Assembly (NCBI GenBank): GCA_027001645.1
Contig: JALTMP010000388.1
Location: forward strand, 1-32,366
Source of the DNA: Candidatus Heimdallarchaeota archaeon
GTDB lineage: Archaea; Asgardarchaeota; Heimdallarchaeia; Heimdallarchaeales; JAJRWK01
Length of the DNA stretch: 32,366 bases
Direction of reading: 5' to 3'
The number at the start of each line of letters is the position of its first letter. Positions within the stretch are counted from its first letter, which is position 1. Positions 5,872-25,943 of the stretch are shown here, one piece after another. A program made the position numbers and the translations under genes. The notes below the pieces were generated by a model. It saw only the letters and a program-made list of their open reading frames with translations, made no database searches and had not been told where the DNA came from.

Positions 5872-8112
5872 TTACAATCCCAGCTTGTCAAATAAATCAG
5901 TGATGCTGAAATTCTTGTCGAAATAAATGAATACTGGGATGAATACCAAGGCTACCGTATTGATCAGTTTTACGAGCACGTGAATACTGGGTCCCGACGT
6001 ATCTTTGGCGGGATCACCAACAGTGTCGCCAACAACAGCTGCCTTATGTGCTTCACTACCCTTTCCGCCAAATTCTCCTGCTTCAATGAGTTTCTTAGCA
6101 TTATCCCAGGCTCCACCAGCATTGTTCAATGTAAAGCCTAGCATAATCCCACTGAATGTCGCTCCAATGATGAATGCTGCCACTGCCACAGCTCCAAATA
6201 TGATGCCAACAAGCACGGGAGTAACAGTCACTAGCAAGCTGGGAATAATCATTTCCCTTAGAGCTGACTTTGTACTAACATCTACACATTTTCCGTAATC
6301 GGGGTCTTCTGTTCCTTCCAGAATTCCCGGGATCTCTCTGAACTGGCGTCTCACTTCTTCAATCATTCCTTTTGCAGCCCTTCCGACTGCCCCAAGACTC
6401 ATGGCAGTAAAGATGAATGGGAGGAGCGCACCAACGAGAGCTCCCATGAGAATGTGGGGATTGGTAATATTGACCTCAATATGCCCTTCGCCGTAGAGGC
6501 CTTTAGCTTCTCTTGAGAGATCTTCAAGATAAGCCTGGAAAAGTAAGAGGGCCGCTAGACCTGCACTCGCCATTCCATATCCTTTCGCTAAGGCTTTTGT
6601 AGTATTCCCAACAGCATCGAGAGCTTCCATGGTTTTTCGAACATCTTCACCAACGTCTGCCATTTCAGCTACTCCACCTGCCTGGTCTGCAATTGGACCA
6701 TAACCATCCATGGCGAGGATCATTCCCGTAACGCTAAGCATGGCCATTGTCGCAATAGTGGACGCGTATACTCCCCAAAGAACGGGGTTGCTAATGAGAG
6801 AACCTTCGCCAGCAAATTTTGAACCATAAAGGGCTCCATAACGTTCTCCGAAGATGAATGATCCCATTATCGCGATTATGATCATAATTGTCGGAATCGC
6901 AGTGCTTTCCATTCCTACTGATAAACCGGTAATTATGTTGGTTGCCGCGCCTGTCTTTGAAGCCTCTGCAATCGACTTGACCGGTCGATAGTGATAGTTT
7001 GTGTAGTAGTCGGTAATGGCCATAATGACCCATGCGAGGAAGAGTCCAAGTAAAGCTGCGCCAAACATGAATCCGAATAAAGCCATTGAACCATATCCTT
7101 CACCAAGTGGCTTTGCAAGCATTGTGTAGATAAGGATACCAAAGACAATTACAGCACCGATAACGTTGAGATTGTATGCCCTTCTTAGAGGAGTCATTGG
7201 ATCTTTCTCTGATTCATCAAGTTTCACGAAAAAGCTTGCAAGAAGGGTTACCATTAACCCCCACCCTCTTGCAACAAGTGGGAAGATTATGAAATTAACT
7301 GCGATTTTGTCATCAACGCCTAGGCTGGTGAGTGACAAGTAAAAGGTTAGCCCTACAATCATGCCTCCGATGTTTTCACCTGTAATCGACTCAAAGAGGT
7401 CAGCACCTCTCCCTGCACAGTCTCCAACAGCATCTCCAACATTATCTGCAATGACTGCTGGGTTTCGCGGGTCATCTTCAGGAATTCCTGCTTCTACTTT
7501 TCCTACAAGGTCGGCACCAACATCTGCTGCTTTGGTGTAGATTCCTCCGCCAAGCTGAGCGAAGAGAGCTGCGAAGCTAGCCCCGAATGCGAATCCAATG
7601 ATGTCTTGTGGTGCTGGAGCTGCTGTAGAGCGCCAATTGCTGTAAATGAAGTAAAGTATGCTGATTCCAAGTAGGCTTAATGAAACCACAAGCAGTCCCA
7701 TCACTAGTCCTCCGCGGAATGCAATGGTCAAAGCATCATTTTTGCTTCTTCTCGCTCCTTCTGTTGATCTTGCGTTTGTGTCTGCAGCGACAATCATTGC
7801 TACTGCTCCAGCGATAAGACTGGTCGTTACACCAATGAGGAAAGCAATCAATGTGTATGGTTTCCCGCCGTATCTTGTCAAGTCAATTGCGAGATAGAGG
7901 ATTCCTGCTACGACTGCGCCGATAATCCCAATTGTAGAATATTGGCGTTTGATGAATGCCAAAGATCCCTCTTTCACAGCGTTTTGAATTTTAATCATTG
8001 CTTCTGTTCCGCGATCCTGCTGATGAATCCACTTGATATAGTAAACCGCTGCAATCACAGCGATTAAAGCAGTTATGGGAGCGGTCCAGAAATAACCGTT
8101 AGCAACTACCAT
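5872..8112 (-). CDS. hppA: Membrane-bound proton-translocating pyrophosphatase
   Basis: Integral membrane pump that couples hydrolysis of pyrophosphate to ion export. At 746 aa with about 16 hydrophobic segments it matches the family. The substrate site is clear: DVGADLVGKVE followed by GIPEDDPRNPAVIADNVGD and the ADLFES segment (about residues 190-240), and near the C-terminus GDTVGDPAKDTSGPS. The ion/potassium determinant reads GNTTKALAKG, with Lys506 where potassium-dependent enzymes have Ala; Lys here marks the potassium-independent class, which are proton pumps. The following variable position is Ala509. The second signature reads GDAVGD where I expect GDNVGD in most members. The ATG at 8112 has an AGGTGAG ribosome-binding site. 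The promoter lies near 8195, with palindromes. Family confidence is very high; proton specificity is inferred from the Lys. Confidence 0.97.
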   Translation of the reverse strand: MVVANGYFWTAPITALIAVIAAVYYIKWIHQQDRGTEAMIKIQNAVKEGSLAFIKRQYSTIGIIGAVVAGILYLAIDLTRYGGKPYTLIAFLIGVTTSLIAGAVAMIVAADTNARSTEGARRSKNDALTIAFRGGLVMGLLVVSLSLLGISILYFIYSNWRSTAAPAPQDIIGFAFGASFAALFAQLGGGIYTKAADVGADLVGKVEAGIPEDDPRNPAVIADNVGDAVGDCAGRGADLFESITGENIGGMIVGLTFYLSLTSLGVDDKIAVNFIIFPLVARGWGLMVTLLASFFVKLDESEKDPMTPLRRAYNLNVIGAVIVFGILIYTMLAKPLGEGYGSMALFGFMFGAALLGLFLAWVIMAITDYYTNYHYRPVKSIAEASKTGAATNIITGLSVGMESTAIPTIMIIIAIMGSFIFGERYGALYGSKFAGEGSLISNPVLWGVYASTIATMAMLSVTGMILAMDGYGPIADQAGGVAEMADVGEDVRKTMEALDAVGNTTKALAKGYGMASAGLAALLLFQAYLEDLSREAKGLYGEGHIEVNITNPHILMGALVGALLPFIFTAMSLGAVGRAAKGMIEEVRRQFREIPGILEGTEDPDYGKCVDVSTKSALREMIIPSLLVTVTPVLVGIIFGAVAVAAFIIGATFSGIMLGFTLNNAGGAWDNAKKLIEAGEFGGKGSEAHKAAVVGDTVGDPAKDTSGPSIHVLVKLINTVALVFIPVFIYFDKNFSITDLFDKLGL

Positions 8113-9689: not shown

Positions 9690-9717
9690 AGGTAATACCT
9701 CTTGAATTTCATTCAAG
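9690..9717 (-). terminator. Tandem hairpins at the end of the Cache/VWA operon
   Basis: CTTGAAT-TTC-ATTCAAG (9701-9717) is a perfect 7-bp stem with a 3-nt loop that straddles the stop codon of the Cache receptor gene. Immediately downstream on the minus strand is AGGT-ATT-ACCT (9690-9700), then a pyrimidine-rich stretch. It may be a 3' end structure of the operon message; the overlap with the stop codon is unusual for a terminator. Confidence 0.35.
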
Positions 9718-11859
9718 AATATTTCTCAATAGGTAGAGTAGTGGAATATAGGTTTGATCCCTTGTGTCTGGATTGATAACAATTGTTTGAGAATGATCCA
9801 ATTTTATCCCGTATTCTTCTGGAATGCGCTCGACGATTTCGCTTAGTGTTTCCTCTGAAATTGCCAGAAGTGAGCTGAGAGCGGCTAACGGAATCCTTTC
9901 TGATTTGAGAAGTAGCGCGGCTAAGAATACAAAGCGATTGTTTCTGATTGTCTCATATTTGCTTACATCGTACGTATCAGAGGACAGAAACTCATTGATA
10001 AGATCCGAAGGGATGCGTTCTGCCTTTTCTTTGATCAGTAATAATTGAGAAATCACTTCGAAGTCTCCAGAATTGTATTCGGCAACTATTCGGCCAAGGT
10101 TTTTTCTCAACTTGGACTGATCAATGATAACATTGTTTCCTTTTGTTGTGACTCCAATAGAGTCGGGTAGAATATCAATCCAAGCTTTGATTGCTTCTGG
10201 CTCTTTATTCAGCAACCGAGAAAGAAGCAGTAAGTCAAGAAGTTCTTGAGATTGAAAAATCGTCGCCACTATTTCGGCTTTTGTTAATCCTGATAATTCA
10301 GAATAGTCTCCACGCAACAAATTGTTCAAGTCTATTTTCCTATCCCTGATTTTCGAGGCTAACTCACTGTAATCTTCGCTTTTGCCATGAATTTTTCCAA
10401 TAAATGTCTCGAGTTTTTCAATAGGGTTGAAGAGTGTCTCAAGTTTTTGATCGACTAGTTCAATAGCTGTATCGATTTTTTCGCTAATCTTTTCTTCTAT
10501 GGCTTGCTGAGGATTACTCAGAAATGCTAATCCTTCATCGAAGCTTAGAGTTTCTGAGATAGTTGTTCGAATTTTCATTCCTTTTTCTCTAATCTTGTCC
10601 GCAGCTAGCTGGGAAGCTTCTTCAATGCTCATCGGTGTTTGTCCGAGTTTTTCCAGAACTTCTTCCAGAGTGATTTTTTTCAAGAACCCATATTTTCTAA
10701 GAATTATCACTCCTATGATGCCCAGTATCGAGATTACTGCAAACGGAACTGGCAAAACATCGCTGAGCTCATAAGACCCTTGTACCACTTGCTTGTTCAA
10801 TTCTCTAACGCTCAGAATTATGAATTCAAATCCTTTAACTACGTTAGCTGTAATGATAATTGTTGATGAATCAGTATTTACTATTTGCTGATTAAATTCC
10901 TGGACGCTGAAGTTAAGATATTGCTCGTGAGACGCACTTGGAGAATAGAGCTGTGTCATGTTCAAAGTAGAATAATATGAAGAATTCCAAAGGAAATCGT
11001 TCAGATCAACGTTTGAATGAGCAACTATGTGTTTGTTTCTATCCATTACTGCTTGGTAGTTTTGAGATGCTTGTGCTGGAGAATAGAGCATGCTTTGAAT
11101 GCTCTTAACTTCAAAATTCAAAGCAACTACTGCTAGCAGTTGATCTTTGAAATAAAGGGACTTAGAAATGGTCAGATAAATCGAATGTAACTGGTTGTCA
11201 ACTTTTGCTGTCGAATAAATCATATCTGAAGAATTTGCTGCCTTCAAGTACCAATCCTTTTGGCGGAAGTCTTCCGTTGCGTTAAAGTTGTAGTTTGGAA
11301 ACGTTCGTAGCACTCCTGCAGGGGTTCCGACTTGTATTGAAATAGTCTCCTCTAGTAAGCCGAATAGCGTGGGTAGGAGTAAGTCCAAGTTCGCGGTAAC
11401 ATTGATCTCATGAATAATCTGTTTACTCCAATTATTCTCATCTCCGGAAGCATAGACCTTAACAACAGATCTTTGAAAATCAACAGTTGTGTTATATCTT
11501 TCTGAGAATTCCGGTGTTGGAGTAAGCTCTCCATAGTAGTACGACCGTACGTTGCTTGTTTTATTCTCCAAAAGCGTTTTGCGAGTATAGTTCTCGACGA
11601 GAGAAAAGACTTTTTCCACTGAGTTCAAGTACTCTGTTAATTCCTTACTCATGCCCAGAACAAGAGTTGATTGCGCATCTCCGTTCATCGCAATATATTC
11701 TTGGGAAAGATCAGTCGTAAGCTGAGTCTGGAAAAATGAAGTATATGTGGATAGAGGAATAAAGGCTAATGTAAAGAAAATGACTACTACTGCCGGAATG
11801 AGAGAGTATGCGAAACTAGACGCTATCTTGTTGATTCTTGTTGATACAGGCTTTTTCAT
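9709..11859 (-). CDS. Cache-domain membrane receptor with two cytoplasmic winged-helix-like modules
   Basis: Predicted transmembrane sensor, 716 aa. One membrane helix at about residues 13-37, an extracellular region of some 330 residues (about 38-365) with double-Cache character (FRQKDWYLKAANSSDMIYS, the typical ligand-pocket stretch, and many N-glycosylation-type sites), and a second helix at about 366-390. The cytoplasmic part has a helical/coiled region (about 395-530), then two similar blocks: LSRLLNKEPEAIKAW..PDSIGV..NNVIID (about 541-580) and LSSLLAISEETLSEI..PEEYGI..TIVIN (about 657-696). Each looks like helix-helix-wing, i.e. a winged helix. There is no kinase, GGDEF or methyl-accepting domain. 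The ATG at 11859 overlaps the stop of the VWA gene (ATGA) and has a GGAGG ribosome-binding site. I infer ligand sensing relayed to DNA or a partner protein; the output is unproven. Confidence 0.75.
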   Translation of the reverse strand: MKKPVSTRINKIASSFAYSLIPAVVVIFFTLAFIPLSTYTSFFQTQLTTDLSQEYIAMNGDAQSTLVLGMSKELTEYLNSVEKVFSLVENYTRKTLLENKTSNVRSYYYGELTPTPEFSERYNTTVDFQRSVVKVYASGDENNWSKQIIHEINVTANLDLLLPTLFGLLEETISIQVGTPAGVLRTFPNYNFNATEDFRQKDWYLKAANSSDMIYSTAKVDNQLHSIYLTISKSLYFKDQLLAVVALNFEVKSIQSMLYSPAQASQNYQAVMDRNKHIVAHSNVDLNDFLWNSSYYSTLNMTQLYSPSASHEQYLNFSVQEFNQQIVNTDSSTIIITANVVKGFEFIILSVRELNKQVVQGSYELSDVLPVPFAVISILGIIGVIILRKYGFLKKITLEEVLEKLGQTPMSIEEASQLAADKIREKGMKIRTTISETLSFDEGLAFLSNPQQAIEEKISEKIDTAIELVDQKLETLFNPIEKLETFIGKIHGKSEDYSELASKIRDRKIDLNNLLRGDYSELSGLTKAEIVATIFQSQELLDLLLLSRLLNKEPEAIKAWIDILPDSIGVTTKGNNVIIDQSKLRKNLGRIVAEYNSGDFEVISQLLLIKEKAERIPSDLINEFLSSDTYDVSKYETIRNNRFVFLAALLLKSERIPLAALSSLLAISEETLSEIVERIPEEYGIKLDHSQTIVINPDTRDQTYIPLLYLLRNILE

Positions 11860-13652
11860 TGCACTTCCTCCTTGTCTGCAACTACTCTAATTCTAACCAC
11901 GTAGACGATGATTGCTGACCCTAATCCAAGTAACCCGCTTGGGAAAACAACAAAAGGATCAATGTTCAATTCACTCATCTTGGATTTTATGCTGGAGTCC
12001 AAGATTTGGTCTAGCTGGGTGGTAAGTCCAAGAATCATTGATGTATTGCCCACTGGAACTAACGTGACTAGTTTTTCTTTCCCGTTGTATGAGATGATTC
12101 CTACACTAAATATTCCCTGTTTTGCATTGTCTTTCATTTTCACAAATTCTCGTGAATCAGTTTCAAATTTCTCAATCGGTTGTTGAATATCCTCGGGATT
12201 CAGTCCCTCTAGCGAAAGCCCTTCAAACTTCGAATGAAAGAGCGTGATTCCCCCACTATCTATGAGAAAATAGCTAGTATTTCCGCTAGTTAGCGATGAC
12301 TTGATTAATTCTATGATTCGATTAATCTGAATGTCGCTTGAGACTACCCCTTTTACTTCATTTCGAACAATGACCGGAATTGCTGCAGGCAATATTAGTC
12401 CATGTCCTTCTTTCGAGATTTCTGGGAATCCCCAGTTTACAGTTTCAAGTATGTTCTGTGAGAAAAAGGTCAAAATCCTAGTTGTTGCTTCGCTAACCAG
12501 AATTGTTTCATTCAAAGTAACAACAATTCCTCCTGTTTCATCAGCTATGGGCTGCATTATTTTTGTTTCATTTGTGCTATGAATTGACACAAATAGAAAC
12601 TGAGCATTAACAAAGCCATTGTTTTGCTCGAGATTCTCAAGTATTTCGTCTACATCTGTAATTCCGGCTGTGGGTTGACCATCAGTCAAAGAAATGATCA
12701 AGGAGTTTCTAGTCTTGCTACTGTACTGGTTAAGAATTTCGAGACTTTGCAACAATCCCTTATTCAAGTTAGAACTTAGATCCGGTCGAATTTTTTCAAG
12801 AAATTCTAGAGAAGCATTATACGAGGAATCTGTTAACACTTCAAGAGAGTCAAACACAGACTTCGTATCAAAATTAAATCTCAAGATATTGAATCTGTCT
12901 TTGGGTCCCAGAGAACTAATCAGCTGAAGAGTCATGTTTTTGGCTTTTTCGAACTTTTCTCCCTTCATTGAACCCGAGGCATCGAGTAGAAAGACGACAT
13001 CCTTTGCACCTGTTGCTCCCAAGGAATACCATGATTCTAATGCTGGATCAAACTCTTTTTCTAAAGACTGCCAAGGATAAATTCTCGTGAAACCGCTTGA
13101 AAATCCAGTAATAAATCTCACGAACTCCACGTCATTGTCGTAGAAGGTTTTTAGGAGGTGGTCTTGTTTTGCGGTTCTTAAGATCTCGGCTTTCAGTTCT
13201 GGAGAAACTTTCGTCAAGGGGTGCACTTGCTCCTTTTCTGCAGAAAGATATTCTTCTTGATACTCCTCAGAAAACGCTCTTGGGGAGATCATATATGCCG
13301 ATGCTTCGTACGAAATCCTTTTTTCCAATTCTTCATCATAGAATGTTCCTGGCGGCTGTTCAATGTCAGAATTATGATAATAAGAAGGAACACTCGGGAT
13401 GAATGTATCATTGAGATATATCTGCTTTGTAAAACGCGACAATGATTGAAGAATGCCCTCTTCGAACTTGAGGCTTTGGCTCAACACGTTTGCGGATGAT
13501 TTTGCTTCTTCTAGAAACGCTTGTTTCAGTTCGTTCTTCAATTCTGAGGGTAATCTTGGTTCCGACTCGGATATTGTGTAATATGAAGTTGCAGCACCAA
13601 AGGCAATGCTGACAAGCAACATTGCACCTAGAACAATACTATGTAATCTCAT
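11856..13652 (-). CDS. VWA-Cache membrane protein, alpha2-delta-like
   Basis: Extracellular von Willebrand factor A protein, 598 aa, with the layout of calcium-channel alpha2-delta subunits: signal/anchor helix (about 6-24), an N-terminal VWA_N-like region (about 30-210), VWA (about 215-390), a Cache-like region (about 400-560) and a C-terminal helix (about 568-588). The metal site (MIDAS) is intact: Asp224-x-Ser226-x-Ser228 in LLDASGSMKG, with DLSSNLNKG and SLTDGQPT supplying the other ligands. In the region SKEGHGLILPAAIPVIV the protein resembles the Cache half of alpha2-delta and prokaryotic relatives. The stop of the preceding gene abuts its ATG with no gap (TAG-ATG), with GGAGG upstream; its stop overlaps the next gene. 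Probably binds a protein or ligand outside the cell together with the neighbouring Cache receptor. Confidence 0.82.
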   Translation of the reverse strand: MRLHSIVLGAMLLVSIAFGAATSYYTISESEPRLPSELKNELKQAFLEEAKSSANVLSQSLKFEEGILQSLSRFTKQIYLNDTFIPSVPSYYHNSDIEQPPGTFYDEELEKRISYEASAYMISPRAFSEEYQEEYLSAEKEQVHPLTKVSPELKAEILRTAKQDHLLKTFYDNDVEFVRFITGFSSGFTRIYPWQSLEKEFDPALESWYSLGATGAKDVVFLLDASGSMKGEKFEKAKNMTLQLISSLGPKDRFNILRFNFDTKSVFDSLEVLTDSSYNASLEFLEKIRPDLSSNLNKGLLQSLEILNQYSSKTRNSLIISLTDGQPTAGITDVDEILENLEQNNGFVNAQFLFVSIHSTNETKIMQPIADETGGIVVTLNETILVSEATTRILTFFSQNILETVNWGFPEISKEGHGLILPAAIPVIVRNEVKGVVSSDIQINRIIELIKSSLTSGNTSYFLIDSGGITLFHSKFEGLSLEGLNPEDIQQPIEKFETDSREFVKMKDNAKQGIFSVGIISYNGKEKLVTLVPVGNTSMILGLTTQLDQILDSSIKSKMSELNIDPFVVFPSGLLGLGSAIIVYVVRIRVVADKEEVQ

Positions 13653-15803
13653 CTAAAATGCCTCCATAGCTTTCACTCGATTTCTCACAACGTAATAGAT
13701 GTAAAGGAGTGGTGCTTGAATACCTGCCAGAAGCTGAACTTGTTGATTACTTAACGAAGTAAAGTCAGGAAGTGGCAAGATTTGTCCCACTAAAGAATAA
13801 ATGATTGCAACAAATCCAGATAGAATAACTAGTTTATTTGCAGTTTCGCGTTGGGCCTTACTGATTCCCAACGTTTTGTTCATAACGGTATAATAAATCA
13901 CTTGTTCTTCAAACGGTTCTGCAACATCTGGTGGAATGTAATTCTTACTTAGGTCGAATAGTGGGTATCCAAGAACCAATAATTGCTGATCTCCTGATTT
14001 TTGAGGAGTGATTGATATTTTGAATTCTGCTTCCTCATGTGGATCGACGTGTAATTCAACCAAGGAAGGTGTTACCGTATCATGTGCTTCAAAAACCAAG
14101 CGAATTCCTGGTAGTGAGGAAGGATTTCTACATTTTACCTGAATCACAGCTGTTTCCTCTTCTACCAATTCTGTAAGAGGTTGGAATCGTGTAATCAGTT
14201 TTCCATCGGGGATTCGAGACTTATCCGTCACATTTTGGAGTTCATTGAGAATGTCGTTGCCTTTCAAAGTGGCAATCCATAATATTGTTACTGCCAAAAT
14301 AGCCCAGAACACGCTACTTCTTTCCTGAATTGAAGGGCTACCTTCGAATGTTACTAGGTACGCTTGGAACGCAAGGAAAACAACAAAGCCCATGCTTGTT
14401 AGGACTAAAACTATTTGCTGAACTTGAATAAGCCGTTCTCCATACTTTTCCAAGACTTGGCGTAAGCGGGTTTTTTTCCTTCCCAGAACTTGGTGGTCTG
14501 TTGTATCTGTTGAAAAAGTTAGCTTTAGCTTATTTTTGTTAATTTTCTTTTTCTGCGTATAGAATGTCCATGTGAGTAGTGAAGCAATTATCCCTATTTC
14601 TATTGCTATCGTCGTAGCTAAAAGATTCGCATTGGTTTTGACGATTTCATAAATTCTACTGGGATTTGAAAGAAATGCTGATACTTTTTCTCCGATCATT
14701 GAGAGGCTAACAACACCTATGTTAATTCCACCGAATCCAGCGACTTTCTTAAGGGTCGTATTGGGATTCTTGGTCTTCGATTCGAACTCTATGATTGTAT
14801 CGTCCTCTTCTATTTTCTTATACTCTTTTTCACTAAATGGTAAAATGCGTATTCTGACACTTACTTTCTTTTGCTTCGCGGGCAGAACATAAAACATCTG
14901 TGTCCAAATAGAGCCCGGATCGAGCAAGTCGGTTCTGTCAAACGTGGGTGTGATTTTAGCATTTGCTACTGCCTCAATCGTAAATATCGAGGTTACTTCC
15001 ATTAAGCTCTTGAATTTGACACGTATCGGCGACCACATGCCAACAGTTATGGGGTGATCCACAATTTCAACACTCACGATTTCGGCTTTTCCCATTTCTG
15101 CAATGTTCACTTCCAAATCCCTCATCAAGAGGTCCTTAACATATTCTGCCTTTTGTAAATAAATCTCATAGCTCATGAAAAAAATAAGAACGGCGGGGAC
15201 AAGCAGGATAATAAGAAACGCATCCGTTAGAAAATATACCAAGAATGTCTCAATCCCTTCACTTGGATGGACTCCTTCTTGCAGTTCTGATCCAAAGACA
15301 AACAAGATATTCTTTATCAAACTAATTCCAATCATTGCGGAAAGAGTACTTCGAAATAAGAGTAGTAGTATTTCTTTACTCACTAGTCCTTTAGCCGAAT
15401 TAATTTTTTGCATCCGATAATCATTAGTTAAGAATCCAGTAATCCACGCCCCGACCCCTATTGCTCCCGCAGATATCAAGAGGCTCAAATCTATTCTAAC
15501 TGCTGTAACACCCGTTTCTAAGTAGATTCCTAGTTCAGAAGCCAGTGGTCCGAGAGTGCCGGAAATTCCCCCAATCTTCTTGCCAAAAATGATTCCAGAA
15601 CTAGCAATTAATATTATCCCAACATCGAAATCCGCAAAGGGAAGACTGTTGCTGAGATTGAATGCCTCAAATGTTTTGTTTACAAATACGTAAATCGCTG
15701 TTACTACTAAAATTATGAGCTGTTCTCCTCTACCGTAGCCCGCATCCTGGCGCTTGGATGCGATGTTCCAAGATGACATGAGTGTTGGTAATGTTTTTTT
15801 CAC
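13653..15803 (-). CDS. Multi-spanning membrane protein with two Ig-like domains
   Basis: First gene of the three-gene membrane operon, 716 aa, from a GTG at 15803 (an ATG at 15779 is a possible alternative). Residues about 27-215 hold around six membrane helices whose glycine-rich stretch GIIFGKKIGGISGTLGPLAS resembles the integral-membrane modules of ECF S-components or MASE-type sensors; this is a resemblance only. Next is a soluble beta-rich region (about 225-350) that looks Ig-like, then one helix near 395-420 and a pair near 455-510, a second beta-rich domain with an adhesion-type NPSSLPGIRLVFEAHD segment (about 535-640), and two final helices. No catalytic motif is seen. The stop abuts the start of the VWA gene. 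It may be the membrane scaffold or transporter partner of the VWA and Cache proteins. Confidence 0.7.
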   Translation of the reverse strand: MKKTLPTLMSSWNIASKRQDAGYGRGEQLIILVVTAIYVFVNKTFEAFNLSNSLPFADFDVGIILIASSGIIFGKKIGGISGTLGPLASELGIYLETGVTAVRIDLSLLISAGAIGVGAWITGFLTNDYRMQKINSAKGLVSKEILLLLFRSTLSAMIGISLIKNILFVFGSELQEGVHPSEGIETFLVYFLTDAFLIILLVPAVLIFFMSYEIYLQKAEYVKDLLMRDLEVNIAEMGKAEIVSVEIVDHPITVGMWSPIRVKFKSLMEVTSIFTIEAVANAKITPTFDRTDLLDPGSIWTQMFYVLPAKQKKVSVRIRILPFSEKEYKKIEEDDTIIEFESKTKNPNTTLKKVAGFGGINIGVVSLSMIGEKVSAFLSNPSRIYEIVKTNANLLATTIAIEIGIIASLLTWTFYTQKKKINKNKLKLTFSTDTTDHQVLGRKKTRLRQVLEKYGERLIQVQQIVLVLTSMGFVVFLAFQAYLVTFEGSPSIQERSSVFWAILAVTILWIATLKGNDILNELQNVTDKSRIPDGKLITRFQPLTELVEEETAVIQVKCRNPSSLPGIRLVFEAHDTVTPSLVELHVDPHEEAEFKISITPQKSGDQQLLVLGYPLFDLSKNYIPPDVAEPFEEQVIYYTVMNKTLGISKAQRETANKLVILSGFVAIIYSLVGQILPLPDFTSLSNQQVQLLAGIQAPLLYIYYVVRNRVKAMEAF

Positions 15804-15870: not shown

Positions 15871-16602
15871 TTATCTAAGGTCCCCAATATCAAAACCAAG
15901 TTCCATTTCATCCGAATCATCATCGACAGAAGATTCTCCTTCATATTGCTCCGACGAAAAGCGCATCATGGGAACAAAAGAATAATCGAAAGGAATAATG
16001 GGCGGTTCGGGAAACTCCATCTGAGTTAATTGAGATAGCTCTTTTAATGCTATTTGTGCTGCTTCTTCATCCTCATCCTCATCACAATATACCAATAGAG
16101 CAACCACACTCTTCTCGTGGGACGTACCATAAGCTAGAATGCTTGCCAGAGGACCGATCATCGGCAGACGATCACCCATCGTCGTCTTGATTCCATGTTG
16201 CTTTTCATATTCAGGGGTTGTAACATAAGCTGCCCACTTATTATCTCCCGGCTGGCGGGTAACCTCTCTTAGACCTCCAATGAAAATGTATTCCTTGAAA
16301 CCCCACTGAATGACGGTAGCCATCATAGCATCCCAAAACTGTTGAGGTGTTGCAGTGACCGGAATTGGAATCCGTGGAACAAGATAGTATACAGCTCGTC
16401 CTTTTTCCTTATAAAGAGTGATTGGTGCCTCAAGTCTGGATCGATGTAGCCATGTTGAATTTCCCCAAAAACCGACAGATTCTAAGTCAAGGGTTTCTGC
16501 TAAATGGTTCATAACATTAAACCCTACATTCCCGAAGCCTGTAAACCCTGTGATTAGGATTGCATTCTTCTCTAGTTTATCCGGATCGACTGCGAATACC
16601 AT
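15871..16602 (-). CDS. PAC2 family protein (proteasome assembly chaperone-like)
   Basis: Member of the PAC2/DUF75 family, relatives of eukaryotic proteasome assembly chaperones and the archaeal PbaA/PbaB group, 243 aa, cytoplasmic. The N-terminal LITGFTGFGNVGFNVMNHL is the family's glycine-rich opening strand-loop-helix, and the middle reads EYIFIGGLREV followed by VTTPEYEKQHGI and GDRLPMIGPLASILAYG, as usual in archaeal members. The C-terminus is an acidic tail (SSVDDDSDEMELGFD) with no HbYX proteasome-docking end. The ATG at 16602 has a GAGGAAG ribosome-binding site. The next gene on the strand starts 67 nt after its stop, so it may or may not share a transcript with the VWA/Cache operon. 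A role in proteasome assembly is inferred from family only. Confidence 0.85.
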   Translation of the reverse strand: MVFAVDPDKLEKNAILITGFTGFGNVGFNVMNHLAETLDLESVGFWGNSTWLHRSRLEAPITLYKEKGRAVYYLVPRIPIPVTATPQQFWDAMMATVIQWGFKEYIFIGGLREVTRQPGDNKWAAYVTTPEYEKQHGIKTTMGDRLPMIGPLASILAYGTSHEKSVVALLVYCDEDEDEEAAQIALKELSQLTQMEFPEPPIIPFDYSFVPMMRFSSEQYEGESSVDDDSDEMELGFDIGDLR

Positions 16603-16787: not shown

Positions 16788-16792
16788 GGTGA
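16788..16792 (+). promoter_or_regulatory. RBS that fixes the start at 16798
   Basis: GGTGA lies 5 nt before the ATG at 16798. An in-frame GTG at 16789 is inside this ribosome-binding site and is therefore rejected as the start. Confidence 0.6.
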
Positions 16793-16797
16793 TTATT

Positions 16798-18921
16798 ATG
16801 AAAAAGGTTAACTTAGCGATTACGCTTCTAACCGTAGCTTTTTTGGTTTCTGCCTCTGTGCAGACACCAACGGGTCAAACAACAAGCGCTCAACCCATGG
16901 TGTTGGGAGATAGCTTGTTCTTTGACATTTTCAATTACATGGACGAAACCACATCTGCGTTTGTAGAGAATATTGACGATACGACCGGTCAAACTCTCGC
17001 AAATCACACTGAATCCGGGGTAGTCTCCATTGACAGTTCTGGCTATGGGGAGCTATTCACTGTAGAGAGCTTTGTCGATAGTATTGCCGGTGCTGTAAGA
17101 GGGGAAACGTTTGCACAAGCTGGCAGCTTTATGAATTTCACATGGAATGATTGGGAGAACTTCAGTGGAACCCCCAATCAATTCGGTGATTCATTTCAGC
17201 AACCACTTGATGGAATGAACATGCCTTTCGAAGATTCTTTCTATGCGCTCTACAATAGCACGTACACCATGATCTTCCCTGAAATGCAGGAATTTATGAT
17301 TCCCGTCTTCGAAATTGACGGGATCGATGATGGTCTACCGTTTATTGACGAGAGCCTCTCATCTATACTTGACCGGGCGCTCTATGGCTATCTTGACTTG
17401 GCATCCAGAAATGTTACGCTGTCCGGAAACGTGGTAACAATCTCGAGCGCTTTTGAATCAGCATTCAATGTTTCAAACATTGCTATCTGGGCCGGTGGCC
17501 CGATGCTCCCATGGGCAGAGTACGCTTTTGATATTGAAGCATACCTTGATATTAACTTTGAAGCCTCATTCAACAGTACTTCCGGTATACTGCTCAATTT
17601 CACCTCGACAGACTCTTTTTACGTTCGATTTACTGCCACTAACGTTCCGTTACCTCCACCACCAGGACCACTCTCTCTAGATCAGACCAGTCCATTAGCA
17701 AACATAGTCATCGAAAAATCCTCAACTCAAACTACGGACGTTATTGTGGTCGATTTGAACTTTGGACCCGATCGCATCAAACCCGGCGTAGATCCCAATT
17801 ACGTATTTAACTATGGCGATCAAATCGTGTTTGACTCGGGTTGGTCTTCTGGTGGAATTGCAACAAGTACGATTTCTGATGGGTCCACTGGGCAGATGAT
17901 GAATTACTTCGAGCGAAGCGATTATTCGTACGCTGGAGGAAATACAACACTATTCACTGCTTTCACTGAATTACCTGTCTCAATTAACTCACTTGGTTTG
18001 AGTCAGTCAATCGACGGAATCACCTTCTTTGGAGCCAAGAATGTGTTTGGAGTTACTAGAGATGGTAGCGAGGCTCACGGATTCAGAGACCCAACTAATA
18101 GCTTTGTATGGGACAACAGCACATGGGGACCAGAATTCGAAACAGAGATCAATTACAACATTGTCGAAATTCCATACAATTCAACCCACCCCATGATCGG
18201 TGGATTCGATGACACCGTTGATGTATTCGACTACTTTGGAGATGATAACGGCAAGGACAAGATGCCATTCCTTGACCTAATTGCTGGTAATTCCGTTGTT
18301 CCGCAGACCTCACTCATGTCCTACGACTACTACTGGAACCTATACGTCAACGGATTTTCCAATTACTGGATTAACGCTACAGATGTCATGGCAGAATACA
18401 GCAAGACTTGGAACTTTGTAGTTACTGATCCAAGCATGTTAGACATTCCTGATCTTTCCTCTGTAAACCTCAATGTTGAGATCAGGTTCGATTATTCTGA
18501 AATCTTCACATACGATCGCGACCTTAACATCATTGTTGGTCACTTTGAAAACCTCTGGCTTGACATTTACGTAACCGGCTCAGGCAACATCAACGATCCA
18601 AACACGGGATCGTCCATTCCCATCTCTATTGACTTTACGTTCAACGTTTGGTTTAACAACTATGCTGATCTGATGTCAATTCCTGTGTTCTACCAAACTG
18701 CACCAACATTCACACCAACAGACACTGGCACCTACTCTGATACATTCACTCCCACCAACACCAGCACCCCAGCAAATGACACCACACCTGCTAATGACAC
18801 AGCCCCTGCTGGAACAACCTCGCAACCTGCTCTACCGCTTCCTGGTTTTGGATTTTATGCAACGCTCACTGGTGCAATGGCTGTGACAAGCGTTGTAGTC
18901 ATTAGAAGAAAACGGATCTAA
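16798..18921 (+). CDS. Secreted surface protein with PGF-CTERM-like sorting tail
   Basis: Exported protein of 707 aa. Residues about 1-22 form a signal peptide (MKKVNLAITLL, hydrophobic core, cut near SVQT). The long ectodomain is rich in Asn/Asp/Ser/Phe/Tyr with many N-x-S/T sequons, and has no cysteines that I see. A Thr/Pro/Asn linker follows (TPTDTGTYSD and ANDT repeats, near 18715-18825), then a terminal LPGFG motif, a hydrophobic helix and RRKRI. PGF followed by a helix and basic tail is the layout of archaeal PGF-CTERM sorting signals processed by archaeosortase; none is encoded here. The ATG has a GGTGA site and TATA box, and a terminator follows. The function of the ectodomain is unknown; a cell-surface role is inferred. 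Confidence 0.8.
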   Translation: MKKVNLAITLLTVAFLVSASVQTPTGQTTSAQPMVLGDSLFFDIFNYMDETTSAFVENIDDTTGQTLANHTESGVVSIDSSGYGELFTVESFVDSIAGAVRGETFAQAGSFMNFTWNDWENFSGTPNQFGDSFQQPLDGMNMPFEDSFYALYNSTYTMIFPEMQEFMIPVFEIDGIDDGLPFIDESLSSILDRALYGYLDLASRNVTLSGNVVTISSAFESAFNVSNIAIWAGGPMLPWAEYAFDIEAYLDINFEASFNSTSGILLNFTSTDSFYVRFTATNVPLPPPPGPLSLDQTSPLANIVIEKSSTQTTDVIVVDLNFGPDRIKPGVDPNYVFNYGDQIVFDSGWSSGGIATSTISDGSTGQMMNYFERSDYSYAGGNTTLFTAFTELPVSINSLGLSQSIDGITFFGAKNVFGVTRDGSEAHGFRDPTNSFVWDNSTWGPEFETEINYNIVEIPYNSTHPMIGGFDDTVDVFDYFGDDNGKDKMPFLDLIAGNSVVPQTSLMSYDYYWNLYVNGFSNYWINATDVMAEYSKTWNFVVTDPSMLDIPDLSSVNLNVEIRFDYSEIFTYDRDLNIIVGHFENLWLDIYVTGSGNINDPNTGSSIPISIDFTFNVWFNNYADLMSIPVFYQTAPTFTPTDTGTYSDTFTPTNTSTPANDTTPANDTAPAGTTSQPALPLPGFGFYATLTGAMAVTSVVVIRRKRI
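18769..18811 (+). repeat. Short tandem repeats encoding the ANDT linker
   Basis: Imperfect tandem units encode PANDTTPANDTAPAG in the glycosylation-prone stalk of the surface protein. The units differ by a few silent or conservative changes, typical of low-complexity stalk expansion. Confidence 0.5.
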
Positions 18922-20842: not shown

Positions 20843-20848
20843 GAGGTG
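20843..20848 (+). promoter_or_regulatory. RBS that fixes the MoxR start
   Basis: GAGGTG lies 5 nt before the ATG at 20854, so the in-frame GTG at 20848 that overlaps it is not the start. Confidence 0.6.
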
Positions 20849-20853
20849 TGAAT

Positions 20854-21798
20854 ATGGTAAAATCAATAGATGAAATACATGAACTGGGTGAAACAATCCT
20901 ACAAGAAATGAAAAAAAGAATCATCGGCAATGAAAGAATTCTAGAACTTATTCTTGAAACAATGCTTGCTCGCGGGCATGTTCTCCTTGAAGGAGTTCCT
21001 GGAATTGCAAAATCCTACATGGCCGCTACTTTGGGAGAAGTACTCGGCATGGATCACAAACGCATCCAATTTACCCCCGATTTGATGCCCGCCGATATCA
21101 CCGGGTCATCAATTTATTCTCCAAAAGATCAAGAATTTACTTTTATCCCTGGTCCCGTTTTCACAAATATTCTGCTCTGCGATGAAATATCACGAGCACC
21201 TCCCAAGACGCAAGCAGCTCTATTAGAAGCCATGCAAGAGAAACAAGTTTCGGTTGAGGGAAAGTCCTATCCTCTTCCAGATCCCTTCTTTGTAATTGCA
21301 ACCCAGAATCCAATAGAACAAGTCGGTGTGTATCCCCTTCCAGAAGCTCAACTAGATCGTTTTATGGTAAAACTTCTTGTAAGTCTGCCAACCTTCGTGG
21401 AAGAACTTTCACTGCTTAAGTCCAAGCGCAAAGAGTTTGTTCCAAAAGTCGAGCCTGTTACCTCTGCAAAAGAGATTTTGGAAATCCAGAATTTGATCGA
21501 AACCGTCGAGATTTCCGATCAAGTCTTGGAATACATCGCCAGTCTGGTGGTTCGCACCCGTTTTGTTGAGGCCCTTGCTTTGGGTGGTTCTCCTCGCGCT
21601 AGTTTGGCTCTAATGTCAATGTCGAGAGCTCGAGCCGCGCTACACGGTAGGTCATATGTCGAGCCAGATGATATCAAATTCCTCTTCTTCCACGTAATGA
21701 ATCATAGACTTATTCTCACACCTCAAGCAGAGGTCGAACAAATCCCAATCACTCAGATCATTGAGTCGATTCTAAGAGAAAGCGAAGTAGTTGTCTGA
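20854..21798 (+). CDS. MoxR-family AAA+ ATPase
   Basis: Cytoplasmic AAA+ ATPase, 314 aa, of the MoxR/RavA clade that acts as a chaperone for the partner protein encoded next door. Walker A is GVPGIAKS (Lys53-Ser54); Walker B is ILLCDEISRAPP (Asp110-Glu111), followed by KTQAALLEAMQEKQVSVEG, a MoxR signature. The sensor-1 segment is VIATQNPIEQ, and YPLPEAQLDRFM continues it; RASLALMSMSRARAALHGR is the C-terminal lid with the sensor-2 Arg. Length and motifs are complete, so the ATPase should be active. It starts the operon with DUF58 (22-nt gap), DUF4129 and DUF4350, the familiar MoxR set thought to assemble or activate VWA-type envelope proteins. Confidence 0.96.
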   Translation: MVKSIDEIHELGETILQEMKKRIIGNERILELILETMLARGHVLLEGVPGIAKSYMAATLGEVLGMDHKRIQFTPDLMPADITGSSIYSPKDQEFTFIPGPVFTNILLCDEISRAPPKTQAALLEAMQEKQVSVEGKSYPLPDPFFVIATQNPIEQVGVYPLPEAQLDRFMVKLLVSLPTFVEELSLLKSKRKEFVPKVEPVTSAKEILEIQNLIETVEISDQVLEYIASLVVRTRFVEALALGGSPRASLALMSMSRARAALHGRSYVEPDDIKFLFFHVMNHRLILTPQAEVEQIPITQIIESILRESEVVV

Positions 21799-21821
21799 AT
21801 TTGAGAAAAACGGAAGAATAA

Positions 21822-23381
21822 GTGAGCGTCATGTCAACTGAAGAAGCCCCTCGTGTCAATCCTGAGCTCGTCATAACTACTCGTGGAGTCATTTTCCTCC
21901 TTAGTGGCTTCTCCATCTTTGGGTTTGGCTTAATATTCGATCAAATTGTCTTGATATTACCAAGCGCACTTGTAATTACATTCTTTGCATACTCGCTGAT
22001 TTCTCTCATTCGATTTGCAAATACGTCGTTCTGGTTTGATATTTCGGTTGCTTCCACAACGATTCGAGCCAAGAATTTTCTTGTATTTCGTGCAAGTGTT
22101 TTTTCCGATTCTGACATGCCGATACGCGGCGTCTTATCTGTCGATGTTAGCGATGGATTATTCCCACTCTTACCTGCAAAATCATTCGTAAAAGTTAGTC
22201 TTGAGAAAGAAGGTAGCCTTTCAGCAATGTACTTGTCTCCCTTTAGAGGCAAAGAATACATCGAATCTGTCTCGTTTCATTTTGGAGGGCTCTTTGGCTT
22301 CTTCTTTGCAAGAGTACGTTCCGAACTTGAAATTCCCATTTATGTAATGCCTGAACCCCAACGAATATCGCTTCCCTGGACTGTTAAGCAACGAATTCTT
22401 GATGACCTTATCGCTGAAATCTCTATTCCTATTAGAGGACGGGGAACCGATTTCTTATCTCTCAAGGATTTCGAATTTGGAGATGAGATTCGTCATATTC
22501 ACTGGAGGGCCAGTGCCAAGCATCAAAAACTGATTTCAAAAGAATTCGAGGAACCAAAGCAGTTGAGATTTCTTATCATTGTTGACGCGTCTTCTTCAAT
22601 GGCTGGACCAAAATTGGAATTTGCTCTTTCTGCAGCAGTTGAACTCGCAAGTGCTCTTAGACGATCAACACACAGTTTCTCTGTTCTCATACACAGTGAT
22701 AAAACCTTAAGGCTCCTTTCACCAGGGCATTCGATCCAAGCCTTGCATCGCCTAGAATTAGAGCTTTACGATGTTCAGCCTGACGGTGAATATTTTAATT
22801 TCGAGGAACTTCGCAACTATATTTCCACTAGGCGATTAGAGGATAGTGTTGTTATCCTAATTTCAGACCTTGAGCTCGATCCTGCTGAAGTAAAAACAGG
22901 CTTAACACTCTTAATGCCCATCGTAAACCATCTCTTTTACTTACCCTTATTCACTCCCGGCTTTGGAACTCTTGCATATACGAAGGTTAGAGAAAAAACT
23001 CAGTATCGAAAGGAAGAAACTAACTACAGACGAACCATCATCGAGCCTCTTCTCTACTTGAAATATAATAAGAGAGCTGCGGACTATGAAAGTGCTACTG
23101 CCCGAATCAAAGGAGGCATGCACGTTATCATGAGCTACGAGACTAATATCCTTTTAGAACTTCACACGTTGTTAAGGAAAACCGGTCGGTCTACGAGAAC
23201 TAGGGCAACGTCTCGAATGAGATCCGCAAGTGGGTCCTTCTCGCAAGTTAGCAATGACAACGCCGCTCGTCTCTTGACTTCTAAGTCTACCTTTCCCTCG
23301 AGTCGAATTCCATCGAATGAGAACAAGAAAATGCGACAACCGCAAGAAGCGTGGCGATATGAAGGAGGAATGAAGAAATGA
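21822..23381 (+). CDS. DUF58 protein with VWA-like domain
   Basis: Membrane-associated partner of MoxR, 519 aa from the GTG at 21822 (ATG at 21831 is an alternative). Two hydrophobic segments at about residues 15-62 anchor it. The DUF58 core follows: RGRGTDFLSLKDFEFGDE, then IRHIHWRASAKHQKLI, the family hallmark with the conserved Gly-Asp and Trp-x-Ala-Ser. The VWA-like half has the metal motif Asp255-x-Ser257-x-Ser259 in VDASSSMAG and a later Asp in ISDLELD. About 90 extra residues at the C-terminus are basic and Ser/Arg-rich, longer than typical DUF58. It sits directly after MoxR and its stop overlaps the next start (ATGA). Likely a MoxR client at the inner face of the membrane. Confidence 0.93.
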   Translation: MSVMSTEEAPRVNPELVITTRGVIFLLSGFSIFGFGLIFDQIVLILPSALVITFFAYSLISLIRFANTSFWFDISVASTTIRAKNFLVFRASVFSDSDMPIRGVLSVDVSDGLFPLLPAKSFVKVSLEKEGSLSAMYLSPFRGKEYIESVSFHFGGLFGFFFARVRSELEIPIYVMPEPQRISLPWTVKQRILDDLIAEISIPIRGRGTDFLSLKDFEFGDEIRHIHWRASAKHQKLISKEFEEPKQLRFLIIVDASSSMAGPKLEFALSAAVELASALRRSTHSFSVLIHSDKTLRLLSPGHSIQALHRLELELYDVQPDGEYFNFEELRNYISTRRLEDSVVILISDLELDPAEVKTGLTLLMPIVNHLFYLPLFTPGFGTLAYTKVREKTQYRKEETNYRRTIIEPLLYLKYNKRAADYESATARIKGGMHVIMSYETNILLELHTLLRKTGRSTRTRATSRMRSASGSFSQVSNDNAARLLTSKSTFPSSRIPSNENKKMRQPQEAWRYEGGMKK

Positions 23382-24244
23382 GAGAAGACCCAATTGTTTT
23401 TCAAGATTGGGACATCGGGCTTTTACTGCCCAAAATCCATTCTCGCTATGGTACTTTTAATCTCATCACGAGTCTATTAATCGCATTAATCTCTGGGGCG
23501 TTGGGGTTCTATTTGCGTCTTGATTTTCTTTTCCTCCTGTCTGTTTTCTATGCTATCATTTCATTGCTTGCTGAAGGACTCATGACAAGAATTGAATCAT
23601 CATCGCTTGCCAGAGTGAGTTTCTTCGTCATAACCTTGTTTTTTGGCGTTTTAACTATGGATTCTCTCTTTTCCATTTCTATGCCTAACGTGAAGAGAAT
23701 ACTTGTTTCATTTTCTATCCTTGGCATAACTTTTCTAATAGCAATCAAAGGAATGATCCTGCTCGTTGATGAGCAACTAAACGAAATGGTTGGTCAAGTC
23801 CTTATTCCGAGAAATGCAAATTCAAAGAAAAAGCTTGTCGAACAAATTCATCTATATGAGAACACTCAGTTCCGCTTCCGCACTCCAGAGGAAACTCGTG
23901 AGACTACTATTCATTTGCTGAAATATTATTTACGATTCTTTCTCTTGGGATTCGCACTAACTATTCCGTTAATTATTGGAGGAATCACTAATTCCGAAGC
24001 TATGTATGAAGCTAATCTAGGACCATTTAGAATTGCTATTGGAATAGGTGTGTCCGTTCTAATATTCTTATTCCTGTTTGTTCCCATCTCTTTTACTATA
24101 TTGTTCATGCTCGATAAGGCTCAAGGCTTTTGGAATAAGTTAGCTGAAAGAATTAGATCAAGGGCCAATTCTCAAACGAGTGAAAAAGATAAACTCGACA
24201 CAGAGGTGCCCTCAGTACCCCTTGGGGATTTATCACCGAGATGA
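23378..24244 (+). CDS. Membrane protein of the MoxR/DUF58 operon
   Basis: Unrecognised integral membrane protein, 288 aa. Helices are visible at roughly residues 25-65 (a pair), 72-93 and 104-126, then a soluble, charged loop (about 130-180, with QFRFRTPEETRETT), and another pair at about 184-248; the C-terminus is a charged tail ending GDLSPR. No catalytic motif is seen. The ATG overlaps the DUF58 stop (4 nt) behind GGAGG, so translation is coupled, and the next gene starts 6 nt after its stop. Its position inside the module suggests that it is a membrane subunit of the DUF58 assembly. Other archaeal clusters may carry a homologue, but I cannot tell. Confidence 0.8.
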   Translation: MREDPIVFQDWDIGLLLPKIHSRYGTFNLITSLLIALISGALGFYLRLDFLFLLSVFYAIISLLAEGLMTRIESSSLARVSFFVITLFFGVLTMDSLFSISMPNVKRILVSFSILGITFLIAIKGMILLVDEQLNEMVGQVLIPRNANSKKKLVEQIHLYENTQFRFRTPEETRETTIHLLKYYLRFFLLGFALTIPLIIGGITNSEAMYEANLGPFRIAIGIGVSVLIFLFLFVPISFTILFMLDKAQGFWNKLAERIRSRANSQTSEKDKLDTEVPSVPLGDLSPR

Positions 24245-24250
24245 TTAAAC

Positions 24251-25159
24251 ATGATACCAGAAAAACCCACGCACTCAAAGAATAGGTCCTCCCCGCCTAG
24301 TAAACCTCTTCCAACGAGACTCCTATTTGAGCCCAGTGCTGACACCCCAGAAATTCGACGTAGCTCTCAGCAGTGGCAAAAAACACCGTTTTCTGAAAAA
24401 ATCTACGACTTTGAGAGAGCTCTTGCGACCTTCACGGTATTCTTTCTTTTCTTCTGGGGGGCCTTCATTGGTTTTTCACTTGCTGGAATAAGAATAAGTA
24501 ATAACCTACTTAATTTCTTTTCTGCATTTCTGCTAAGTATTGATCAAGGTTTCATTTTCTTTGGTTTTCTCTCACTCTTTCCCTACGATCAGTTAGTTCT
24601 TTTCTCTATGATAATTGGGTGGACGGCTGCCTCAATCTATGCAAGGATTAAATTTGGCAGGCTATACTATTTAAGATCAATAATGTATGCCGGCATTTTT
24701 CAGCTGACAATGACTATTGGGTTGTTTGTGGTGATTCTTTTCCCTTTTCTGGTCACGATCATTCTCTTTCTTCCCTCTTCGCTCACGGGGATTGTTTTGT
24801 TTCTTATCCTTGTAGGAGTCTACTCTGTAATTGTTCCTATCGTTTTTGGATTGCTTGGGGTGTTCATAGGTGCGATTATTCAAAACGAGGTTCCTTACCA
24901 CCCAATCATAAGGCTAGTTCCTAGTTTTTTGCTATCCCCTTTTGGACAACTATACCACACATCATCACAGAAATCGAAAAAGGAAGAAATGAGCGGATAC
25001 TGCCCATTTAGAATGAAACAACAGCCCGGATGTCGTTTCCTTGGTTTGAGGGCTGCAAACCTTCCACTAATATGTGATGATCCCCGTGCTTGGATGAATT
25101 ATTGCACGTTGTATTCCCACCTTAGCGAAAAAATCGGAGGAAAAACAATTGAAAGTTAA
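24251..25159 (+). CDS. Membrane protein with C-terminal four-cysteine tail
   Basis: Unrecognised, 302 aa. The N-terminal 60 residues are polar, then about five or six hydrophobic helices (roughly 62-220), then a cytoplasmic or external tail of some 60 residues. The tail has Cys251, Cys261, Cys275 and Cys285 with spacing 9-13-9, within CPFRMKQQPGCRFLG, LICDDPRAW and NYCTLY. Four spaced cysteines with conserved-looking Pro/Trp/Tyr around them suggest a metal site (zinc or Fe-S), but I do not recognise it. The gene starts 6 nt after its neighbour and its end overlaps the TTG start of the DUF4129 gene by 11 nt, so it belongs to the MoxR/DUF58 operon. Function unknown. Confidence 0.78.
   Translation: MIPEKPTHSKNRSSPPSKPLPTRLLFEPSADTPEIRRSSQQWQKTPFSEKIYDFERALATFTVFFLFFWGAFIGFSLAGIRISNNLLNFFSAFLLSIDQGFIFFGFLSLFPYDQLVLFSMIIGWTAASIYARIKFGRLYYLRSIMYAGIFQLTMTIGLFVVILFPFLVTIILFLPSSLTGIVLFLILVGVYSVIVPIVFGLLGVFIGAIIQNEVPYHPIIRLVPSFLLSPFGQLYHTSSQKSKKEEMSGYCPFRMKQQPGCRFLGLRAANLPLICDDPRAWMNYCTLYSHLSEKIGGKTIES
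25136..25140 (+). promoter_or_regulatory. RBS that supports a TTG start
   Basis: GGAGG lies 8 nt before the TTG at 25149, inside the end of the preceding gene. This spacing and the downstream signal-like helix support TTG as the real start of the DUF4129 gene. Confidence 0.65.
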
Positions 25160-25943
25160 AGACCTCTCCATAAGCGCTACAATTGGGATTGGCTGGGTTT
25201 TGCTTGCAAACTTCTTAAATGGAATCTATACCTCTCCTGATCTGAGCTCGCCCTCTATCCAAACAAAGACAAGTTCAGCAACTGAGACTTTTTCCTTTAC
25301 TCCGGGATCGTCCCAAAACGGCGGACCTGTTGACTTCCTAAGAATACTACTTACAATTTTTATAATCGCTGTGATTATCGGCATTCTATACGCGGTATAC
25401 CGAATATTGCCCGAAAATTCATTCATTAGACGAATTAGGAGTGCTCCTCCCAAATCGGAAAGCGTCGAAAAAAGAGTTAAATCTGTTTCTGAAGCGCGAG
25501 TTAGGGCCAGAGCCATACTTGAGAAAGGGCTTGAAACAGGAGAATACACTTGGGCTGTGATAGAGGCGTATCGGGTCCTAGATAAGGAATTAGATGCTTT
25601 TCGAACCATTGCCAGACCTAAGCATTGGACACCTAAGGAATACGCCTATCACGTCAGCCACCCGATATACCAACCCTCAATTCGAGCCATTGTCGAGATT
25701 TTTTATCGGGTGCAGTATGGAAAGCAGGAAGCCACGAAAAATGATGTAATGGACTTCCTAACCCTACTCGACGGAATATTTGTCCAAGAGGTTACTCCAA
25801 CCATAGGACAAGAAATTGCAAATCTGGTGCAAAGACATGAACTGAGCTATCAAGAAGTCCTAATCCCACGGGTAGCTGATTTTACCAAGCCCTTCGTACC
25901 AGGAGGGACGGTGATTGAAAAGGAGGAAGTAAGAGATGAATGA
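25149..25943 (+). CDS. DUF4129 domain membrane protein
   Basis: Membrane protein of the MoxR module, 264 aa from a TTG start with GGAGG before it. An N-terminal signal-like helix (about 8-25), an external Ser/Thr-rich loop and a second helix (about 57-82) are followed by a cytoplasmic domain. That domain has YRVLDKELDAFR, then RPKHWTPKEYAYHV and IFYRVQYGKQ, the arrangement of DUF4129, which also forms the C-terminus of the TgpA transglutaminase-like envelope proteins. There is no transglutaminase core here. The end overlaps the DUF4350 start by 8 nt. It probably contacts the DUF58 or MoxR proteins at the membrane; this is an inference from gene neighbourhood. Confidence 0.88.
   Translation: MKVKDLSISATIGIGWVLLANFLNGIYTSPDLSSPSIQTKTSSATETFSFTPGSSQNGGPVDFLRILLTIFIIAVIIGILYAVYRILPENSFIRRIRSAPPKSESVEKRVKSVSEARVRARAILEKGLETGEYTWAVIEAYRVLDKELDAFRTIARPKHWTPKEYAYHVSHPIYQPSIRAIVEIFYRVQYGKQEATKNDVMDFLTLLDGIFVQEVTPTIGQEIANLVQRHELSYQEVLIPRVADFTKPFVPGGTVIEKEEVRDE

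Follow-up and report, generated by a model that had tools for sequence, protein, structure and literature searches.

A conserved Heimdallarchaeal operon encoding a VWA-in-dCache protein of alpha2-delta-like build, a dCache receptor, and a polytopic membrane protein

The alpha2-delta proteins are subunits of voltage-gated calcium channels (CACNA2D1-4) and the target of gabapentin and pregabalin, and CACHD1 is an alpha2-delta-like protein that binds Wnt receptors. Among animal proteins, only the alpha2-delta proteins and Cachd1 are known to contain dCache domains (PMC9901441), and a 2025 review describes the same restriction for eukaryotic genomes (PMC12303104). The dCache_1 domain of the animal proteins is split by a von Willebrand A (VWA) domain (PMC9901441), in the same manner as in a protein encoded by an Asgard archaeon of the Heimdallarchaeal lineage. 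A search of the full-text literature found no prokaryotic alpha2-delta or Heimdallarchaeal Cache/VWA system, though mention in other literature is possible.

The window analyzed here is a 32,366-nt stretch of DNA from a Heimdallarchaeal genome of 3.09 Mb (88% complete), in which it is contig C388. It carries three consecutive genes, referred to as MEM, VWA, and CAC, with the following features:

15803-13653, minus strand: MEM, the first gene of the operon, an open reading frame of 716 amino acids with a GTG start, encoding a polytopic protein
15168..15734, minus strand: MEM residues 24-212, putative six-helix ECF S-component-like domain (PF07155/PF12822 in homologues)
14775..15116, minus strand: MEM residues 230-343, first Ig-like beta-sandwich, predicted to be cytoplasmic (AF2 pLDDT ~70-80, Foldseek)
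13881..14195, minus strand: MEM residues 537-641, second Ig-like beta-sandwich, predicted to be cytoplasmic (AF2 pLDDT ~76-84, Foldseek)
13661..13665, minus strand: ribosome-binding site for VWA (GGAGG), 8 nt ahead of its ATG and within the MEM 3' end
13652-11856, minus strand: VWA, an open reading frame of 598 amino acids, encoding a protein with two TM helices whose dCache_1 carries an inserted VWA domain
13005..13544, minus strand: VWA residues 37-216, N-terminal section of the interrupted dCache_1 (flank profile)
12459..13004, minus strand: VWA residues 217-398, MIDAS-bearing von Willebrand A insertion (PF00092, alignment)
11958..12458, minus strand: VWA residues 399-565, C-terminal section of the interrupted dCache_1 (PF02743, flank profile)
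11867..11871, minus strand: ribosome-binding site for CAC (GGAGG), 7 nt ahead of its ATG and within the VWA 3' end
11859-9709, minus strand: CAC, an open reading frame of 716 amino acids, encoding a two-TM dCache receptor, a paralogue of VWA without the VWA insert
10762..11751, minus strand: CAC residues 37-366, extracytoplasmic dCache domain (Pfam, profile, alignment)
10360..10629, minus strand: CAC residues 411-500, long helices or coiled coil after the second TM (AF2 helices, low confidence)
10111..10302, minus strand: CAC residues 520-583, modelled first winged-helix domain (AF2 H-E-H-H-E-E, pLDDT ~75-90)
9763..9960, minus strand: CAC residues 634-699, modelled second winged-helix domain (AF2 pLDDT ~85-93)

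MEM and VWA abut with a spacing of 0 nt and VWA and CAC overlap by 4 nt (ATGA), exactly where an earlier sequence-only reading of this DNA had placed the junctions, and the strong ribosome-binding sites that it had assigned to the last two genes were also recovered. No Shine-Dalgarno site was evident in the sequence inspected upstream of the MEM start. Upstream of MEM, at a distance of 67 nt, is a PAC2 gene (15871-16602), and a methyltransferase gene is found 163 nt downstream of CAC. Elsewhere the window contains genes for a membrane-bound ion-translocating pyrophosphatase (5872-8112, minus strand), a 710-aa secreted-type protein with no Pfam match and a sub-cut-off C-terminal Loki-CTERM sorting signal (16789-18921, plus strand), and a sodium/calcium exchanger (PF01699; 31064-32212, minus strand). 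A MoxR/DUF58-type operon is found a few kilobases from MEM-VWA-CAC (20848-27303, plus strand), encoding in a row a MoxR AAA ATPase, a DUF58 (VWA-like) protein, two polytopic proteins, and a DUF4350 protein.

The VWA protein matches PF00092 (7.9e-16) and dCache_1 (PF02743; 1.1e-11). It had previously been given a serial VWA_N-VWA-Cache layout, of which the alpha2-delta-like VWA and Cache parts hold, but the VWA domain is inserted within a single dCache_1 domain, and Pfam VWA_N (PF08399) has no match in the window protein and only weak, sub-cut-off matches in 3 of 7 relatives. In the archaeal and the animal proteins alike, the insertion interrupts the dCache domain between the motifs WYxxxxxxxKD and W..Y(V/L)D with identical junction spacing (WY, 7 residues, and K-D before the VWA domain), and PctA, CAC, and the VWA-less dCache proteins of a sister family, f5, are uninterrupted at this site in the alignment. 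The common position could be the product of convergence. The MIDAS, previously described as intact, is better called near complete: DASGS (residues 224-228; D224-S226-S228) and Asp324 align as expected, but the Thr position is occupied by Ser294. A serine in place of this Thr can also coordinate metal.

A profile of the VWA family matched alpha2-delta-1 with an E value of 2.7e-36 over residues 152-550, through the VWA domain and both dCache halves, and CACHD1 with an E value of 3.1e-33 over residues 157-477. With the same profile, matches to ITIH, integrin, and BatB proteins spanned only residues ~211-410, the VWA domain, and those to chemoreceptors spanned almost only residues ~404-483 of the distal dCache; this partial coverage serves as an internal control for the full-length match to alpha2-delta-1. 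Used alone, the N-terminal and C-terminal flanks matched the alpha2-delta-1 flanks with 32.6 and 23.2 bits, respectively, against 7.1 for the best of 600 shuffled sequences. The isolated VWA domain of the window protein is nearer to ITIH (3.4e-19) than to alpha2-delta (1.1e-6). A chaperone-usher or adhesin class, which the sequence-only reading had named as the competing assignment, was rejected because such matches cover the VWA domain only, the best full-length matches being alpha2-delta-1 and CACHD1. A plain VIT-VWA protein was rejected as well, since there is no VIT domain and the dCache flanks are significant on their own, as was an apparent bacterial alpha2-delta-like protein on a plasmid of Pontibacter sp. 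G13, in which only the VWA domain matches. With its two membrane anchors, the VWA protein has almost no cytoplasmic part and so must act through a partner.

The three genes form a real, conserved operon. MEM, VWA, and CAC are also colinear in three related genomes (G009, L022; G004, L023; G005, L024), with overlaps of 4-8 nt, so that the proposal that the genes are kept together in relatives was borne out. VWA and CAC share the 4-nt overlap (ATGA) next to a divergent MEM in G014 (L018) and also overlap by 4 nt at a contig edge in G011 (L025). The genes flanking MEM-VWA-CAC differ between genomes, and the relatives' proteins are only 27-32% (MEM), 24-33% (VWA), and 20-24% (CAC) identical to those of the window, so the gene order has outlasted what a chance neighborhood would allow; chance adjacency was rejected because order and overlaps recur across genomes. 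Two of the relatives carry, immediately 5' of MEM, a gene with Big_7 Ig and endonuclease/exonuclease/phosphatase domains (L022:388-2568 and L023:2022-4178) that is absent at the window.

Full-length VWA proteins were found in 8 of 227 genomes of the phylum, with a contig-edge fragment in a ninth. All nine genomes belong to one class, six to the window's order and three to family f5, and the VWA gene is always followed by a dCache gene. No relative was found on viral contigs. Presence is patchy, as two congeners of the window genome (G001 and G002) lack MEM, VWA, and CAC altogether and G007 has MEM without VWA. In f5, a VWA gene is followed by a VWA-less dCache gene, and there is no MEM:

L019:9042-12085: f5 pair of VWA-in-dCache and VWA-less dCache genes
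L020:8262-11305: f5 pair of the same build
L021:11750-14664: f5 pair of the same build

A leucine-rich-repeat/Prok-RING gene lies downstream of the pair in L019, and the VWA gene of L020 is interrupted by a TGA. In other Asgard archaea, MEM is divided between two neighboring genes, the break following the first Ig/TM pair, with no VWA nearby; such pairs were seen across the phylum (L077 and L080-L086), with neither VWA nor CAC in the vicinity, and apparently represent an undescribed two-subunit membrane family with Ig-like domains. Because MEM is split elsewhere, the simplest reading of the window protein is that two partner subunits have been fused in it. These distributions bear on the possibility that VWA and CAC alone make up a two-protein receptor, a split alpha2-delta-like sensor, and that MEM is an independent gene that joined the operon in one order. 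The MEM-less f5 pairs, the phylum-wide MEM homologues away from VWA, and the lone MEM of G007 all fit such a receptor; however, MEM adjoins VWA in all five genomes of the window's order that have both, colinearly and at 0 to -4 nt in four of them, and we regard this explanation as somewhat unlikely.

CAC has TM helices at residues 16 and 368, with the dCache domain between them and the modelled winged-helix tail predicted to lie inside; its dCache_1 match (PF02743; 5.3e-9) is below the curated cut-off. Its earlier description as a Cache receptor stands and can be extended: CAC aligns with the VWA protein across the dCache domain, with a gap exactly where the VWA domain sits, making it a paralogue with a predicted coiled-coil/tandem winged-helix tail. 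The CAC profile matches the dCaches of chemoreceptors and, in CACHD1, the second dCache (7e-7). The VWA-less f5 homologue also matches the second dCache of CACHD1 (2.1e-11) but matches PctA better, so that a one-to-one correspondence between CAC and the animal second dCache is not supported by these comparisons.

The AF2 model of the cytoplasmic tail (mean pLDDT, 71.5) consists of helices followed by two winged-helix domains. A profile of the winged-helix repeat, built on an alignment whose first row included a few wrong leading residues outside the winged helix, with marginal effect on the searches, matched the archaeal Lrp-type HTH protein PH1519 (E value, 1.8e-4) as well as MarR-type HTH proteins, and recovered the second CAC winged helix in the window at 7.4e-24. 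In Foldseek searches with the tail, no match had an E value below 0.1, and the top entries were a mixture of PCI-type winged helices of the COP9/26S lid and CRP. CAC might be a membrane-bound one-component transcription regulator, with its Cache domain external, its winged helices internal, and VWA and MEM as accessory proteins, as the tandem winged-helix model and the Lrp/AsnC- and MarR-type matches would suggest. The winged helices are mostly acidic, however (pI 4.6 and 5.0 in the window; the first acidic in 5 of 5 measured proteins; most tails acidic; the second basic in L022 and L023), which makes docking of a protein more likely than binding of DNA, and the best, nonsignificant fold matches include PCI-type domains beside CRP. 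We consider a transcription regulator rather unlikely.

MEM is multi-spanning and Ig-like, as the sequence-only reading had it, but the Ig-like domains are probably cytoplasmic, and the first six helices appear to resemble an ECF S component. The protein has ~12 TM helices, with both termini placed inside by charge distribution, and the loop charges of six MEM orthologues place both Ig-like domains, a long basic loop, and the C terminus on the inner side. The modelled Ig-like folds resemble transglutaminase C-terminal Ig domains in Foldseek comparisons, and the second has a weak match to PF00927 (Transglut_C; E value, 0.005). Among 22 MEM homologues, 12 match PF07155 (best, 8.8e-7) and 4 match PF12822 (best, 2.6e-8), mostly below the curated cut-offs; the six-helix core and its homologues carry an FGPxxGxxxGxxGN-type signature. 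In its membrane part, the AF2 model is of poor quality (mean pLDDT, 55), the S-component-like helices being of low confidence. The window genome also encodes a MEM paralogue (G000:C173; L088:5427-7658), downstream of which are encoded membrane proteins that carry zinc-ribbon and RING-like domains.

The S-component family matches raise the possibility of a solute uptake or uptake-sensing unit, in which MEM would bind a small molecule in the manner of an S component, VWA and CAC would sense the same solute, and the cell's ECF-T/ATPase module might energize transport. ECF-T (CbiQ) genes were indeed found in 9 of 10 genomes, including that of the window, but no ECF-T or ATPase gene was found beside MEM in the neighborhoods inspected. 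PDB profile searches with the whole of MEM and with its TM domain returned no match, solved S components included, and MEM has six extra helices and two Ig-like domains, which together with the sub-cut-off matches leave an uptake unit unlikely.

The amino acid-binding motif of dCache domains consists of Tyr, Arg, and Trp-Tyr, followed by Asp (Y-x4-R-x-W-Y in cache 1 plus an Asp in cache 2; PMC9901441). The window VWA protein has FDPALESWY, in which the Arg is absent, and retains the Asp; the Arg is lost in every MEM-associated VWA protein (E, S, Q, D, and E at this position) and in CAC. In contrast, the motif is complete in both proteins of the f5 pair (YDPRTRPWY and YDPRIRLWY, plus the Asp in GxD), which suggests amino acid sensing by the f5 pairs and, for the MEM-associated clade, either a different ligand or a role that has become structural. 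With the motif in both of its proteins, f5 makes the question of the ligand directly testable on purified proteins. That the VWA protein serves surface adhesion, with Cache merely a spacer and the operon devoted to cell-cell or matrix attachment, is quite improbable, for although the near-complete MIDAS, the ITIH-like isolated VWA domain, and the loss of the Arg agree with such a role, the dCache fold persists to either side of the VWA domain and in CAC, and the CAC tail is conserved and of signaling type.

The reading that we favor, at a probability of about 0.62, is that the three gene products make up a Heimdallarchaeal membrane sensor complex, for which the assembly, dimer, ligand, and output are inferred. 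The VWA protein would be an extracytoplasmic regulator built like alpha2-delta and CACHD1 and acting via a partner, CAC would be its sister dCache receptor carrying the cytoplasmic output (coiled coil and two winged helices), and MEM could be a membrane scaffold or a small-molecule-handling subunit. The dCache domains, probably as VWA-CAC heterodimers, would sense an outside ligand while the VWA face holds on to a surface partner or the outer loops of MEM in a metal-dependent manner, and the resulting change may reach the coiled coil and winged helices of CAC, the Ig-like domains of MEM, or both. Against a complex stand the evidence that MEM is not obligatory (f5, G007, and the split Asgard homologues), the absence of the trio from the two congeners, the poor membrane model of MEM, and the closeness of the isolated VWA domain to ITIH.

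Several described systems share parts of this build. ITIH and other VIT-VWA proteins are alike in VWA sequence and give the best single-sequence match, but the archaeal protein has dCache flanks and lacks VIT. The ECF S components (RibU-like; PF07155/PF12822) have a six-helix core that MEM appears to share, and MEM differs from them in its additional helices, Ig-like domains, and missing ECF-T/ATPase neighbors. The dCache_1 chemoreceptors, such as PctA and Tlp3, hold dCache_1 between two TM helices and are matched by CAC and its f5 homologue; unlike them, CAC has no MCP signaling domain, HAMP, or kinase, has the predicted coiled coil and tandem winged helices as output, and has an incomplete Y-x4-R-x-WY motif. 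CACHD1 is closer, with two dCache domains, the first bearing a VWA domain, and a TM anchor; the VWA protein matches its first dCache/VWA unit and CAC its second, although in CACHD1 both belong to a single polypeptide. We know of no MEM-like partner of CACHD1. Unlike the archaeal pair, CACHD1 carries an extra FZD-interaction domain (PMC7615972).

The likeness to alpha2-delta comprises a MIDAS-bearing VWA domain that interrupts dCache_1 at the same position, a colinear profile match of ~400 residues, and an accompanying second, VWA-less dCache, encoded in the archaeon by the separate gene CAC. However, alpha2-delta is one cleaved, membrane-anchored polypeptide that, like CACHD1, contains its second dCache, whereas in the archaeon the dCache units are divided between two proteins, each of which has two TM helices, and the VWA protein ends after one dCache domain and a TM helix. 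VWA_N is unmatched, the amino acid-binding Arg is absent, and there is no confident voltage-gated channel: no Ion_trans match over the cut-off was found in ten carrier or relative genomes (68-94% complete), fragmentary assemblies that could hide one, which makes a pairing of alpha2-delta type with a channel unlikely there. It is conceivable, if doubtful at present, that the VWA-dCache and dCache pair is a split prokaryotic form of alpha2-delta/CACHD1 descended from a single shared insertion of VWA into dCache, to which one order added the nonchannel partner MEM. If so, the VWA-in-dCache build, regarded as specific to animal calcium channel subunits, would predate its pairing with channels and would have worked as a stand-alone surface sensor. 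The Asgard operon, in genomes with no confident voltage-gated channel, is a minimal system in which to ask about the role of this build before channels. Membership in the alpha2-delta family is not claimed, three tests of it having come out negative; the evidence favors an extracytoplasmic regulator of alpha2-delta type acting with a dCache receptor over an alpha2-delta subunit.
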